Source of the DNA: a virus
Strand: one strand, 5' to 3'
DNA: 24,382 nt
IMG/VR virus record: IMGVR_UViG_3300032246_000269
Span: 1-24,382 of that record
Shown: positions 4,472 to 24,126 of the stretch, one piece after another
Position numbering within the stretch: the first letter of the stretch is position 1
How the letters are laid out: every line of letters starts with the position of its first letter
Program-made: the position numbers and the translations under genes
Notes under the pieces: generated by a model
Told to the model about the DNA's origin: nothing
Database searches by the model: none
Seen by the model: the letters and a program-made list of their open reading frames with translations, nothing else

Positions 4472-4492
4472 TAAATTTAATTTATTAATGAG

Positions 4493-4516
4493 AACCCCCA
4501 GGAAACTGGGGGTTTT
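4493..4516 (+). terminator. Intrinsic terminator with GAAA tetraloop after the tail tube gene
   Basis: Nine-base arms AACCCCCAG (4493-4501) and CTGGGGGTT (4506-4514) enclose the very stable GAAA loop (4502-4505), followed by a short T-tract (4513-4516). It ends the tube protein transcript. Confidence 0.9.
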
Positions 4517-4520
4517 CTGT

Positions 4521-8200: not shown

Positions 8201-11200
8201 TTAGAAATCTAATAGGTGGTTCTTCAGATAGAATGCCTTATGAATATATGAGATCTATTGCATCTGGAAGAGGTTCATTTTGGAATAGAAACCCATTGCT
8301 TGCTCAAGGTGCTCCAGGAGAAAATCAAGTTGTTGGTCATATATATAGTCCAATGTTTACACGAAGAGTCGGAGCAGGTTCATCTGGCTCATCACCAAGA
8401 TTAAATCAAGAACAACTTGGTCAACACGGACTTTCTGTCAACTCATCTGGCGCATTATTTGATGCCTTACCTAACAACGTAATGACATTTGGAAAATCAT
8501 TTAATACCAAGTTAACTGCAGGAACAGCAACTTCACAAAATTGGTTTGATAGCGAACCCAGAGCGGAACATTTAGTAGGCCTTACAGACTTTTTATTATC
8601 TAAGGGAATACCTGCAAGCAATATAACAGCAATAAGATCAAGAGTAATGGCTAACATTAATTCAAAAATGTCAAGAATATCAGGAACAATTAATGATCGT
8701 CAATTTGGAGGCATTGTTACAAATGCTACAAGACAAGAATTAAGTCTTATTTCAAAATACGGATTTCCATCAGACTATGTTCCATCTGATATGAATACCT
8801 ATAAGAAACGTAGATTTGCTGCAGGCGGAGTTGTTGGAAATGTATTAAAGAGTACAGCGTTTAAAAACCTTGGTGCAAAATTTGGCAAAATAGGTGAATC
8901 ATGGGGAACCCAATCAATGACAATTGGAATGGGCAGAAAGCTTTTTGGTAGTTCTGGATTAACTCCTAAAGCACAAAACTTAATGTATGGAAAGCTTATA
9001 GAAAATCTTGAAAAAGAAAGACCATATGGATATGTAAAAGATGCACAGGGAAGTTTAAAAAATGCATTAGAGCCTCATGTTGTAGATACTCTATTAAAAT
9101 CAGCAGCATGGGATGTTTTGTCATCTGGTGGTAAAAGCCTAAGCAAAATTGATAGAGAAATATTAAGAACTCAATTTGCAGATTGGAATTCAAGTAAATG
9201 GACTCCTTCAACAACTAAAGTAAGAAAACAAATGTTTGGAATGAACAAAGGAGGAATAGTTCCAGGGTATGCAAATGGTGGAATGATTCCTAGATACGGT
9301 GTAGGCGGAGTTATTAAAGGACTAGCTTTAAGCGGTTTAGGTTCAGTGGCAGGACAAACATTAGGACAAATGAGTGGAATTCCAGGCGGAGGAAACATAG
9401 GAATGTTCCTTGGATCAATGTTAGGTCAAGGCTCTATGATGGGTGGAATGGGTATGCGCCAACCAAAGATGCCATTAGAAGGACCACGTATGGAAAATGG
9501 AATGTTTTCAAAAAACTTTTCAATGGAGCATCTTACAAAATCATTTGGTCCAGCAGAAAAACTTGCATCTAAATTAAATGCACTTGGATCAGCAGGAGGA
9601 AAATTCTCTGGAGTTTTAACAAGAATGGGACCAATTCTTGCAAGACTGCCCATGGCATTTAATCCAATTGGAATTGCAATTGCAGCAGTAACAGTAGCCA
9701 CAGTTGTTGGAATTAATCAATGGAAAAAACATCAAGAACAATTAAAATTAAATGCTTTAAGCTACGGCCTTACAGCCGATGCCGCTGCTAAAGCTGGATT
9801 AAAATATACGGACTATAATCAAAAAATTAAAGATAGCATTCAAAAATCAAAAGATTTAATGGAGGCTAATAAGCTTGCATATCAAAGTATGACCTCAGCT
9901 GGCATACCAATTAAGATGACAATTACAGAATATCAAAAGCTTAAGGATGAAGTTAAAGGCGCATATGAACAACAAATAAAATTAATTAACTCTACAAAAA
10001 ATTCAAAGCTAGGTGATGTTGCTGTACAACTTAAAGAACAACTTATTGCAGCAGGAATGTCAGCTGATGAAGCAACTAAGAAAATTTATGCAGCGTTTGC
10101 TTTATCTCAAAAATCTGGAATGGCTGCATCTGCAACTGTAGGAAATAAAGATTTTTCAGCAATTCAAGATGCTCAGGGTGCTGCGGTTGGTTCTCTTAAG
10201 GGATATAATTCAGCAGCAAGATTAGGTGAAGCTCAGGCACAAGTATCAGCTTTAAATACTTCATTAACAGCAATTGATGCAGGTATTTCTGAAATTATTT
10301 CTAAAAGCGAAGAAGCTGCAAGAAAAGATAAATCAGGACACACTGAAAAAATAAGTCAATACAACGCTGAATTAAAAATGATGGAAATGCTAAAAAAGAG
10401 TCAGTATGGACAAACTACTATTACAAAACAAACAATTAATGAAATGGCAAAAGCAAATCCAGCTATTAAAGAGTTGGCTAGCACATCAGATACTGTTGTA
10501 AGTGTTTGGCAAAAGCTTAGATTGCAGGCGGCAGGACTTGCAGGAGATCTTTCTAAATTAACTGCAGATCAAACAGCAGCACTTTATAATTTAAATAATG
10601 CAATAAGCCAACAAGTTATTGCAGCCAATAAGGGTACAAAAGCCAACCCTGGATTGCTAGCAGATGAATATAGCAAATTAGCTTCTTTACAAAAACAACG
10701 AGCAGCTGCAGCAAAAGATGCCGCTGGACAAAGTGCTAAAGCTGCGGGTGACTCTAAAGCGAGACTTAAGGAATTGCAAGATCAAATAGATTCAACTAAT
10801 AAATTAGCAGACTCTAGAATAAAAGCTTTAAATGCAGCAAAAGAAGATGCCGATCTTAATCGTGAAATGGAATCTGCAAGACTAGAAGTTCAATTTGCAG
10901 AATCTACAGGAAATACTCAACAGGCTGCTCAAGCAAGATTAAGATATCAATCTGCTGTTCAAAGCATGCAGACGACTGGGCAAACAAGAGCAATTCAAGC
11001 AGCAGCAGAAAAAGCAAATGCGGGACCACTTGCAGAAATTAAAAAAATTAATGATGCTAATGATAAGCTTGCTACAGCAGCATCAATTGCTGGGGAAAAC
11101 ATAGCTGCACTAGACAAACAAATATTAACACTTACAGGCACTATTGATAATTTAAATAATACACAAACTGCATATGGTCTTAATCTTGCAAAATGGTTAG

Positions 11201-20142: not shown

Positions 20143-20604
20143 ATGGCATTTAACAATCTAACATCAATTTCAATCGGAGACGGTGATCCAGTTACCGCTG
20201 ACGTTTTACGTAAGATTGTTGAAAACATTAATATTATTGCAAAGGGCGAAATAGTAACCCCAGTTCAAATTGAAAGTAAAACAATTAATGGCGGAACTGT
20301 AATAGCCTCTAAGGGGCTTAATACTACTATTGGTGGAATTATCAGTAACAAATCATTAACTCCAACAATGAAATCATTCCCAGTAGATCTGAAGTCATAT
20401 GGGTTTACAGAAACTCCAATAGTTAATCTTACTATTGAATTTCCAGCCACATCACAAGCAGCAGCATATACTCCATACGTAATCAATGCAACTAAAGATG
20501 GATTTAGTATATGGTGTAAAGCAGCTACTACTACAACCAAATCTTTAACAAATGCTAAGATTCACTACACCGCATCTGGAAATACTTCAAGTTTAACCGC
20601 ATAA
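20143..20604 (+). CDS. Putative receptor-binding or tail-tip protein
   Basis: 153 residues, ATG seven bases after AAGGAG. The start (SISIGDGDPVTADVLRKIVENIN) is a pattern seen at the head of small phage tail proteins that attach to the tip. The rest is beta-rich: GTVIASKGLNTTIGGII, then P-I-V-N-L-T-I-E-F-P, TPYVINATKDGFSIWCKAA and NAKIHYTASG. The strand pattern of the C-terminal half, with a V-x-L-T-I / G-F-x-I-W motif, resembles H-type lectin-like sandwiches found in phage binding proteins. That likeness is by eye only. It is the last gene before the terminator at 20649-20673, closing the structural operon. Confidence 0.55.
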   Translation: MAFNNLTSISIGDGDPVTADVLRKIVENINIIAKGEIVTPVQIESKTINGGTVIASKGLNTTIGGIISNKSLTPTMKSFPVDLKSYGFTETPIVNLTIEFPATSQAAAYTPYVINATKDGFSIWCKAATTTTKSLTNAKIHYTASGNTSSLTA

Positions 20605-20608
20605 CCTA

Positions 20609-20636
20609 TTGACAAGCTAAAACAATATGTTACAAT
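20609..20636 (+). promoter_or_regulatory. Strong extended -10 promoter at the structural/replication boundary
   Basis: TTGACA (20609-20614, a perfect -35), 16-base spacer, TACAAT (20631-20636), with TG one base before the -10 (TGTTACAAT). Transcription should start near 20643. The -10 lies in one arm of a perfect palindrome. Confidence 0.75.
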
Positions 20637-20647
20637 TATTGTAACAT
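20627..20647. promoter_or_regulatory. Perfect 21-bp palindrome, candidate operator
   Basis: Ten-base arms ATGTTACAAT (20627-20636) and ATTGTAACAT (20638-20647) around one central T. It covers the -10 box and the expected start of transcription, where a dimeric repressor would block the promoter. No regulator gene for it is recognisable in the window. Confidence 0.65.
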
Positions 20648-20648
20648 C

Positions 20649-20673
20649 AAAGTCACGTACCCGTGACTTTTTT
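20649..20673 (+). terminator. Intrinsic terminator just downstream of the boundary promoter
   Basis: Nine-base arms AAAGTCACG (20649-20657) and CGTGACTTT (20662-20670) with loop TACC, then a T-tract to 20673. The three A's of the left arm pair with the T-tract, so it may be bidirectional. It ends the structural transcript and also lies only a few bases beyond the start of the promoter at 20609-20636. Confidence 0.85.
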
Positions 20674-20690
20674 ACATATTAAGGTAGAAA

Positions 20691-21491
20691 ATGAGCAACG
20701 ATTTAAAATGGATGCTTTCATCCGATCAGCAGTTCCCATATCAAGACGATAAGATGATAGCCCTATGGTTTAAGGTCATGAAATGGTTTAAGCCAGACGT
20801 TGTTGACTACTTAGGAGATACAGACGATCAGGCCTGCTATAGCAAGTATACAGAGGGAAGATCCGCAGAGTTTTTAAACTATCATAAAAATGATAGCAAA
20901 GATCTTATTGTTCCAATGATGCGACATGAAGCAAAGGGAGCAAGAGATTTTTATGCCAAGACAAGAGATATGCTTCCAGACGCACAACTTTTTTCAGCAT
21001 TAGGAAACCATGACATACGAGTATTTAATTATGTAGATGCAAAGCTTCCTGATTATATTTCAGAGGTAACACCAGAAGCATTGTGGAGTCTTGATTCATT
21101 GGGGTATGAATATATTTATTATGATGAACTTCCTAAACGCCGCTTCGGAGATATTCATGTACATCATGGAATGTCTATTGCAGCAACTGGATCAGCAAGA
21201 AAAGATATGGAAGATATGCAGGTATCTTTAATTCGTGGACATTCGCACAGAATTGCTTCACATATGGTAACATATGAACTTAGAAATAATGGTGAGGGAG
21301 AAACTCTTCGTGGTTATGAAATTGGTCACATGTGTGATGAAAAGGGTCCAGGAATGAAATATACTCAGCATCACGATTGGCAAAAGGGATTTGCTGTTGC
21401 ACATATTGTTAACGACTATCCTCATATTCAAATGATTCATATTGCGCCAGACTACTCATGCGTAGTTGATGGAAAGGTATTTACCTTATAA
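20691..21491 (+). CDS. Calcineurin-like metallophosphoesterase
   Basis: 266 residues, ATG seven bases after AAGG. Metal-binding motifs of the family are all present in order: S-S-D12-Q-Q14 (motif I, with Gln where His is usual), G-D43-T-D-D (II), G-N106-H107-D (III), V-H-H159-G (IV) and G-H184-S-H186-R (V). These place two metal ions in a phosphoesterase centre; substrates in phages are seldom known and may be nucleic acid ends or nucleotides. No membrane segment. Residues 45-95 between motifs II and III form a long helical insert (RSAEFLNYHKNDSK). It is the first gene after the structural operon, on the boundary promoter, which suggests a role in DNA metabolism. Confidence 0.88.
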   Translation: MSNDLKWMLSSDQQFPYQDDKMIALWFKVMKWFKPDVVDYLGDTDDQACYSKYTEGRSAEFLNYHKNDSKDLIVPMMRHEAKGARDFYAKTRDMLPDAQLFSALGNHDIRVFNYVDAKLPDYISEVTPEALWSLDSLGYEYIYYDELPKRRFGDIHVHHGMSIAATGSARKDMEDMQVSLIRGHSHRIASHMVTYELRNNGEGETLRGYEIGHMCDEKGPGMKYTQHHDWQKGFAVAHIVNDYPHIQMIHIAPDYSCVVDGKVFTL

Positions 21492-22554: not shown

Positions 22555-22861
22555 GAAAGAGCCATATGTTCTAATTGGATTATACCTATCTCTATACAAA
22601 GAGAAGTATAATAAATCACTTACTGTAAACAAGTTTAGAGAGAAGTGGGCTATGAATGATGTCATAGAAAGTGTTGGATTTCAACGTGCTCAGGAACTTT
22701 TGATATACTATTTTTCTACCAACAAGCAGGGGCACCCATTAAATTTCTTCTATAACAACTTTGACAGAATTGATGCCCTAAATAAAGAAATTAAGAAGGA
22801 TAAGTTTAACCGTAGCATTCTACTGAATGAGACTAAGAAGATGGTGGAGGGCGAAGAGTGA
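22544..22861 (+). CDS. Small helical protein upstream of the helicase
   Basis: 105 residues, GTG start inside the previous gene; ATG 22551 is in the other frame. Largely helical: EPYVLIGLYLSLYKEKYN, KFREKWAMNDVIESVG, RAQELLIYYFSTNKQGHPL, then a lysine-rich tail. No motif recognised. Its stop overlaps the helicase start by four bases (GTGA), so it is coupled to the helicase. Helicase-loading or helicase-binding proteins often stand here, but nothing in the sequence proves that role. Confidence 0.6.
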   Translation: MANEKEPYVLIGLYLSLYKEKYNKSLTVNKFREKWAMNDVIESVGFQRAQELLIYYFSTNKQGHPLNFFYNNFDRIDALNKEIKKDKFNRSILLNETKKMVEGEE

Positions 22862-24126
22862 ATACAGAAGCAACATTAATCTCTGCTGTATGTAAAAATA
22901 AAGATATTAGCACACTACTGGCAGATAACGTTGATGATCTGTTTACATCGCATAGAGACATTTGGGAAAGCTTAAAGTCATACTACTACAAGTTTAAGGC
23001 AGTTCCAGAAGCAGGCGTTCTCATGGAGCGACATAAAGATTTTGAACCAGTTGAGGCCAAGGCAGAGACTGGATATTACCTAGACATATTAAAGAATGAG
23101 TTTATCTCTAACAAACTTAAGACAATTATTATGCGTGGCGGATCTGCTCTTAAAGAAGATGCAGCATCTAGAGTTCTTGCACAAATGCAAAGCGACCTTG
23201 CTGGACTAAGTCGATACACAAACAACGTAAGAGACTTAGATATTATTGACGTTGAGAATGCCGCACGACATTATCAATCAGTTAAAGAGCGTTCATCTGT
23301 AATGGGCGGTGCTCCAGGAATTTTAACAGGTTTTGAAGCAATTGACAAAGCATACCCAACAGGAATGGCTCCAGGACATTTAATTGTAGCAATTGGTTGG
23401 CCAGGAAAGGGTAAGACTTGGTTTACCGCTTACCTTGCATGCAAAGCATGGGAGCAAGGATTTAAGCCGATGATTGTATCTCTTGAAATGTCACCAGAAA
23501 ATATGCGTGACCGTATCTTTACAATGCTTGGCTCAGGTATCTTTCGTGCAAGTGATTTGTCAAAGGGCGATATTAACATTGATGATTTCCGCAACTGGGG
23601 AAACAAAAAGTTTGAGGGAAAGAATAGTTTTGTTCTAATCTCAAATGAAGGTGCATCAGAAGTTACTCCTGCAACTATTCAAGGTAAGATAGATCAACAC
23701 AAACCAGACTTGGTTATTCTAGATTACCACCAGCTATTTAATGATAACAAACGCTCTAACTCTGAAGTAGAAAGAAATAGAAATGTTTCTCGTGAGTTTA
23801 AGATGCTTGCGGTATCTAACAACATTCCTATTATTGATATTACTGCTGCAACAGCAGATGATATTTCTGATCAAGATAATCCGCCAATGATGAGTCAAGT
23901 TGCTTGGTCAAAGGCAATTGAGTATGATGCTGATATGGCTTTAGCCGTTCACAGATACCCACAAACTAATATGATTGAAATTGTCTCTCGTAAGAATAGA
24001 CACGGTCATGATTTTAATTTCTATTTAGACTGGGATATCAACCGCGGTATCGTCAAGGAAATTTACGAGAATCCATTCCAAAAAGATGAACCACAAACAG
24101 ATAAAAAGATTTCAAGTAAGGGTTGA
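22858..24126 (+). CDS. dnaB: DnaB-type replicative DNA helicase
   Basis: 422 residues, GTG start. Residues 1-100 form a helical N-terminal domain as in DnaB (E-A-T-L-I-S-A-V and FTSHRDIWESLKSYYYKFK), then a linker and a RecA-like motor domain from about 150. Walker A is G180-W-P-G-K-G-K-T187; Walker B is L285-V-I-L-D289-Y followed by H-Q. VSLEMSPENMRDRI is the typical strand-helix after Walker A, and SQVAWSKAIEYDADMALAVHR and S-R-K-N-R-H-G match the Q-motif and arginine-finger hairpins. It is a bit shorter than bacterial DnaB (about 470), usual for phage versions. It unwinds the fork ahead of the phage polymerase as a hexamer. Confidence 0.9.
   Translation: MNTEATLISAVCKNKDISTLLADNVDDLFTSHRDIWESLKSYYYKFKAVPEAGVLMERHKDFEPVEAKAETGYYLDILKNEFISNKLKTIIMRGGSALKEDAASRVLAQMQSDLAGLSRYTNNVRDLDIIDVENAARHYQSVKERSSVMGGAPGILTGFEAIDKAYPTGMAPGHLIVAIGWPGKGKTWFTAYLACKAWEQGFKPMIVSLEMSPENMRDRIFTMLGSGIFRASDLSKGDINIDDFRNWGNKKFEGKNSFVLISNEGASEVTPATIQGKIDQHKPDLVILDYHQLFNDNKRSNSEVERNRNVSREFKMLAVSNNIPIIDITAATADDISDQDNPPMMSQVAWSKAIEYDADMALAVHRYPQTNMIEIVSRKNRHGHDFNFYLDWDINRGIVKEIYENPFQKDEPQTDKKISSKG

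Follow-up and report, generated by a model that had tools for sequence, protein, structure and literature searches.

A promoter, a palindrome and a terminator-like hairpin overlap at a conserved operon junction in viral contigs

What might be the use of a perfect palindrome that covers a promoter and is followed at once by a terminator-like hairpin? The question is raised by the IMG/VR virus record IMGVR_UViG_3300032246_000269, of which positions 1 to 24,382 (here called the window, a 24,382-base viral contig with nearly all of its genes on the + strand) hold all three elements within 65 bases, between the last structural open reading frame (ORF) and an operon that extends from a metallophosphoesterase gene to a DnaB-like helicase gene. 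An initial annotation, made from the sequence alone, had offered three readings: an operator plus attenuator that controls the downstream operon, a source of a tiny RNA, or a terminator that serves only the structural operon. Comparison with related contigs indicates that these are ordinary parts in an unusual overlap and that they make up a real, conserved operon junction. The explanation that we favor, and hold with about even confidence, is a compact junction in which the hairpin serves both as a leaky terminator of the structural operon and as the leader hairpin of the next, with the palindrome as an accessory.

RESULTS

Recurrence of the three elements in relatives

The elements at issue are as follows.

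20609 to 20614, + strand: -35 element, TTGACA
20626 to 20636, + strand: extended -10 element, TATGTTACAAT, with TG at 20628-20629 and TACAAT at 20631-20636, separated from the -35 by a 16-bp spacer
20627 to 20647, + strand: perfect 21-bp palindrome, ATGTTACAATTATTGTAACAT, covering the -10 and the start region
20627 to 20635 paired with 20639 to 20647, + strand: hairpin H1, the palindrome as RNA (9 pairs, loop 20636-20638)
20643 (+/- 1-2), + strand: predicted transcription start, placed from the position of the -10 only
20649 to 20670, + strand: terminator-like hairpin H2, AAAGTCACG-TACC-CGTGACTTT (9 pairs, loop of 4 nucleotides [nt])
20668 to 20673, + strand: T6 tract of H2

Every coordinate in the initial annotation was correct when read directly from the sequence, and the promoter that it described, TTGACA-16-TACAAT with an extended -10 overlapping a perfect palindrome, is both present and recurrent in relatives. 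Transcription usually starts 6 to 7 nt after a -10; the left arm of H1 is the extended -10, and its right arm lies at the predicted start.

With the phosphoesterase protein, we retrieved 80 close relatives from viral contigs, and the addition of more distant relatives brought the collection to 103 distinct promoter regions. In all 80 nearest relatives, TTGACA-16-TACAMT stands at the same position, with a hairpin 11 to 16 nt beyond it; across the full collection, a hairpin lies downstream of the promoter in 84 regions (the rows of the comparisons below), and the promoter occurs without one in 19. Taken by itself, the palindrome is mildly unusual for 24 kb and not overwhelming against chance (the window has one palindrome with perfect 10-base arms and a 0- to 3-base spacer, versus 0.2 expected), but because it recurs at the same place in relatives, sequence comparison excludes chance as the source of the arrangement. 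The junction is absent from the Rhodococcus phages Peregrin and Trina, the most distant phages examined, despite their similar gene order, and no cellular relatives of the phosphoesterase were found in genome_contigs.

By sequence criteria (TTGACA, a spacer of 15 to 19 bp and TGnTAnAnT), the site is supported as a host-type sigma-70 promoter with an extended -10. A promoter scan returned 51 promoter-like sites in 12 kb, a number no higher than in shuffled sequence, and this is the sole one of them that scores 11/12 with TG before the -10. Among 79 distinct cores with a spacer of 16, the -35 is invariant, TG is present in 92%, and the -10 columns A, T, TA, A and the final T are invariant. The spacer sequence is poorly conserved (most columns carry less than 0.9 bit, several less than 0.3), although its length is exactly 16 bp in 80/80 nearest relatives. 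Promoters of the TATGYTACA type occur once per record in 16 records. A second promoter made by the palindrome on the minus strand was considered and rejected because the reverse -10 lacks the essential final T in many relatives.

Covariation in the two hairpins

Folded as RNA, positions 20624 to 20678 are predicted to form two adjacent hairpins, H1 and H2 (-17.6 kcal/mol; z = -5.8 versus shuffles). Where a TGnTAC left arm is present (72 sequences), the right arm is fully complementary in 48 and matches at 6/7 positions in another 8; shuffled downstream sequence reaches a 7/7 arm match in 0.15%. Promoter function fixes the left arm save at two positions, the base before the -10 (position 4 of the arm) and the fifth base of the -10. 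At the former, T-A changes to C-G (50 and 10 of 62 rows, respectively, with 2 exceptions), and where the latter changes from A to C, the base opposite is G in 7/10 such rows and in 0/51 others. On a tree of phosphoesterase genes, from which change counts and independent row pairs were taken, these changes are scattered over several places, and 3.0 of 4 independent supported pairs covary at position 4 and 3.9 of 5 at the fifth base of the -10, with 0 pairs opposite in either case.

Both hairpins can be followed together in 38 sequences chosen for holding both arms. Here, 8 of 18 pairs (H1 plus H2) are doubly changed, a value that 0/500 shuffles equal, and doubly changed cells number 29 versus 5.2 in shuffles, with slid registers nowhere near; G-U pairs are also seen. 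The distance between the arms of H1 varies: TGYTAC and GTARCA are separated by 5, 7, 8 or 9 bases, a number that has changed at least 11 times on the tree. When the distance grows by 2, the arms usually gain an inner pair.

H2 is stable (-10.7 kcal/mol, z -6.9, positions 20643 to 20680). A simple terminator scan did not list it, probably because extension of the stem to 9 pairs eats into the T run, and a scan that counts the T run from inside the stem found it. In the 38 sequences, 98.8% of cells of the H2 helix are paired, and 6 pairs have double changes; in several clades, the stem has been swapped for other stems that still pair. At least four T residues follow H2 in 68 of the 84 rows, mostly exactly six, beside flanks that differ. 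H2 begins 11 to 16 nt after the -10 in nearly all rows (9 nt in three distant rows) and ends 16 to 22 nt ahead of the ATG, three rows excepted; hairpins of this type are single copy wherever they were found in whole relatives. The terminator-like hairpin that the initial annotation placed next to the promoter is thus backed by conservation; by these comparisons, the promoter and the pairing of both H1 and H2 are conserved in relatives. An alternative pairing of 20624-20630 with 20674-20680 (ACATATT before AAGG) was rejected, as changes in one partner are uncompensated in the other.

Position of the junction between two operons

The following features flank the junction.

20143 to 20604, + strand: last ORF of the structural block, 153 amino acids, without a match in Pfam or PHROG; 4 bases separate the end of its stop codon from the -35
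20681 to 20684, + strand: AAGG, likely the Shine-Dalgarno site of the metallophosphoesterase gene, with an AAGG or AGGG-type site in nearly all relatives
20691 to 21491, + strand: metallophosphoesterase (PHROG 221, E 1e-53), which opens the operon
22858 to 24126, + strand: DnaB-like helicase, reached through small ORFs after the phosphoesterase

In all rows tested, the end of the upstream stop codon falls at most 12 bases ahead of the -35 and at most 4 bases inside it, and H2 starts 36 to 52 nt after that stop. Because the stop abuts the promoter, a terminator placed in front of the promoter would overlie the stop codon, which would explain why it is found behind. In Escherichia coli, a trailing ribosome represses a terminator that lies less than about 27 to 30 nt from a stop codon, and a distance of 36 to 52 nt falls in the range in which the terminator tR2 is fully active (PMC4824070). 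As H2 lies beyond the repressed zone, the promoter may occupy positions at which a terminator would in any case be weak, an argument for the placement of H2 that is carried over from a different host.

On the favored explanation, the structural operon would end in a stop codon that is immediately followed by a sigma-70 promoter of the phosphoesterase-helicase operon, and the terminator of the structural operon (H2 plus its T tract) would have been pushed downstream of the promoter, into the leader of the next operon. Polymerase that comes in from the structural genes would then meet H2 as a leaky intrinsic terminator, while the new mRNA would carry H2 as a stem-loop at its 5' end, immediately ahead of the ribosome site; transcription begun at the promoter is assumed to run through H2 often enough for the operon to be expressed. 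H1 could form only in RNA from the structural operon, as the -10 that makes up its left arm is not transcribed from the promoter. Folded by these incoming transcripts, it would probably aid their 3' end, either through the folding of H2, which it may insulate from upstream coding sequence that varies greatly, or through resistance to exonucleases. We infer the start site, termination, read-through and the role of H1, and the function of H1 is the least certain of these steps. Of the readings in the initial annotation, a terminator serving the structural operon fits best, in that the upstream stop abuts the promoter, with termination itself presumed.

DISCUSSION

Several observations weigh against this explanation. 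The T tract is absent from 16 of the 84 rows, including a clade with AGGCCATGA-ATAT-TCATGGCCT, and within the closely related pair L010 and L015 it has been lost in one partner only. Because these 16 rows keep the hairpin without the tract, the conserved part appears to be the hairpin and not termination, which probably does occur in most lineages and can be dispensed with in some. The right arm of H1 is absent from 22 of 84 rows that keep the promoter and the hairpin, and for this reason H1 is treated as dispensable, an accessory. H1 is present in 55/67 rows with a T tract and in 6/12 without, a comparison that is confounded by descent and was not used. The independent pairs that covary are few (each sign test alone gives p >= 0.125), and paired percentages are inflated by the choice of the 38 rows. 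It is also awkward that the terminator would begin about 7 nt from the promoter's own start, with read-through assumed.

A variant of the same layout makes fuller use of H1: spanning the -10, it would fold only in incoming RNA and raise termination at H2, while polymerase started at the promoter would pass. We regard such sensing of transcript origin as a tentative proposal, clearly less probable than the favored one. It draws some support from a sister lineage (L187 and L209-L216), which speaks for the favored explanation too: at the same junction, some 60 bases ahead of the phosphoesterase gene, the -10 of its promoter is spanned by an unrelated hairpin. The arms are CCAGTC..GACTGG in L187 and CCCCAGTT..AACTGGGG in L209, L210 and L216, the latter with one pair compensated. 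Hairpins across a -10 are not general in these phages, as 26 promoter-like intergenic sites in three genomes include few comparable ones. Given the same tentative standing is the reading of H2 as a 5' stem-loop with a protective effect on the leader of the phosphoesterase mRNA, whose ribosome site it would keep accessible, the T tract being incidental and H1 minor or neutral. Compensatory changes preserve the hairpin in rows that lack the T tract (L001, L029, L060 and others), its distances to the -10 and to the start codon are fixed, and mRNA-stabilizing stem-loops in 5' untranslated regions (UTRs) are known from other bacteria (reviewed in PMC7509114). This reading leaves the pairing of H1 unexplained, however, and does not account for a T6 that is retained in most lineages beside variable flanks.

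Regulated attenuation, in which RNA from the promoter would normally stop at H2 unless a phage or host factor of the Q, AlpA or put kind, loaded at the promoter, carried polymerase past it and so timed the replication operon, seems unlikely. A promoter-proximal intrinsic terminator is kept in most lineages, AlpA acts with terminators that begin 26 and 54 nt downstream of the start (PMC7969949), and the right arm includes TAACAT, which is similar to a pause element of the -10 type at the start, yet the palindrome is missing in lineages that retain the T tract, no binding element is conserved between the -35 and the -10, and PF06530 and PF03589, sought as cognate antiterminators, are absent from eight large relatives (records of 109 to 120 kb; other families were not searched). 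With the T tract itself missing from 16/84 rows, an obligatory attenuator in particular is unlikely. Neither the conservation of the site nor the eight genomes give a sign of a known antiterminator, and the attenuator or tiny RNA that the initial annotation had suggested keeps a low probability. A DNA operator, at which a dimeric repressor would bind the palindrome and block the -10 and start site, is still less probable. The palindrome is perfect and occupies the classical place for a repressor, and symmetric changes in two half-sites would mimic covariation, for which reason the operator is lowered in probability but not eliminated. A protein dimer on DNA is usually intolerant of varying half-site spacing, which RNA hairpins tolerate; here the spacing takes four values, the right arm is lost repeatedly, and a search for the arms elsewhere found no second copy, whether in the window or in any of three whole relatives, save looser matches with other spacings. 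The variable spacing, the G-U pairs and the occurrence of the arms once per genome together argue for a flexible RNA hairpin, which fits the palindrome better than an operator of fixed geometry, and the operator claim is disfavored. Least probable by far is the production of a functional RNA, about 30 nt long, with its 3' end at the T tract: the predicted start and the tract have the right geometry, but no sequence is conserved beyond the paired stem and the promoter, the stem is replaced in several clades, and no Rfam match exceeds threshold (the best, AaHKsRNA82, scores 22.4 bits against a gathering cutoff of 51.4).

The junction resembles several known systems without matching any of them. 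Like intrinsic terminators behind a stop codon, it has a hairpin and T tract 36 to 52 nt after the upstream stop, but the tract is absent in some lineages. Phage 21 PR' and the Pseudomonas aeruginosa promoters alpB and PA0807, controlled by Q or AlpA, likewise combine a strong promoter with a close intrinsic terminator. Promoter-proximal terminators at AlpA-controlled promoters, one of them predicted 26 nt from the start, can restrain expression, and those of the alp system lie 26 or 54 nt downstream of it (PMC7969949), compared with about 7 nt here; phage 21 has a direct repeat as its Q site (PMC6606751), whereas here the spacer between -35 and -10 is unconserved and no Q family protein was found. 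The put RNA of HK022 also has two hairpins, and an early promoter lies just ahead of putL (PMC9378689), but put spans about 70 nt with both stems transcribed, while the left arm of H1 is untranscribed from the promoter and the stems here are freely replaced. Stabilizing 5' UTR stem-loops share the position of the hairpin, at the 5' end upstream of the Shine-Dalgarno site (PMC7509114), and differ in that a T tract follows it here in most lineages. A literature search on promoters inside terminators found no direct precedent.

If the favored explanation is true, a dense phage genome parts two operons without spare sequence, one stretch of DNA being a promoter for one polymerase and the code of a hairpin for another. 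Palindromes over promoters should then not be called operators before the spacing of their arms has been checked in relatives. The covariation makes the idea of such a junction directly testable.

Other sites in the window and its relatives

Strong terminator-like hairpins also occur within the structural block of the window, at 455-486 (GAAAGGCCCC..GGGGCTTTTC) and 4490-4517 (GAGAACCCCC..GGGGGTTTTC), and the former recurs in the relatives G003, G005 and G008. At L131:14790-14832 and at the equivalent site in L147 (near G008 65770-65811), a GC-rich hairpin, GCAGGGGCAGTC..GACTGCCCCTGT, carries in its right arm the -35 of the promoter TTGACT-17-TAGAAT, and an ATG follows about 6 nt later; from its sequence, this site is another terminator-promoter overlap in the same phages. 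A promoter just before an apparent tRNA gene (TTGACA..TATAAT; L132:17917-17970, G003 37917) sits within a long inverted repeat (CCACTGTAC..GTACAGTGG) that has TTTTG after it. Promoter-like sites at L134:7232-7290 (G003 67232) and near 10760 on the minus strand of L144 are followed by a shared AGGGGGGTCGGGGGGTCA near the start. In G003, G005 and G008 (L131-L149), many promoter-like sites have an ATG 6 to 10 nt after the -10, which suggests that such sites give leaderless or nearly leaderless mRNAs and that the junction studied here, with its structured leader, is an exception.
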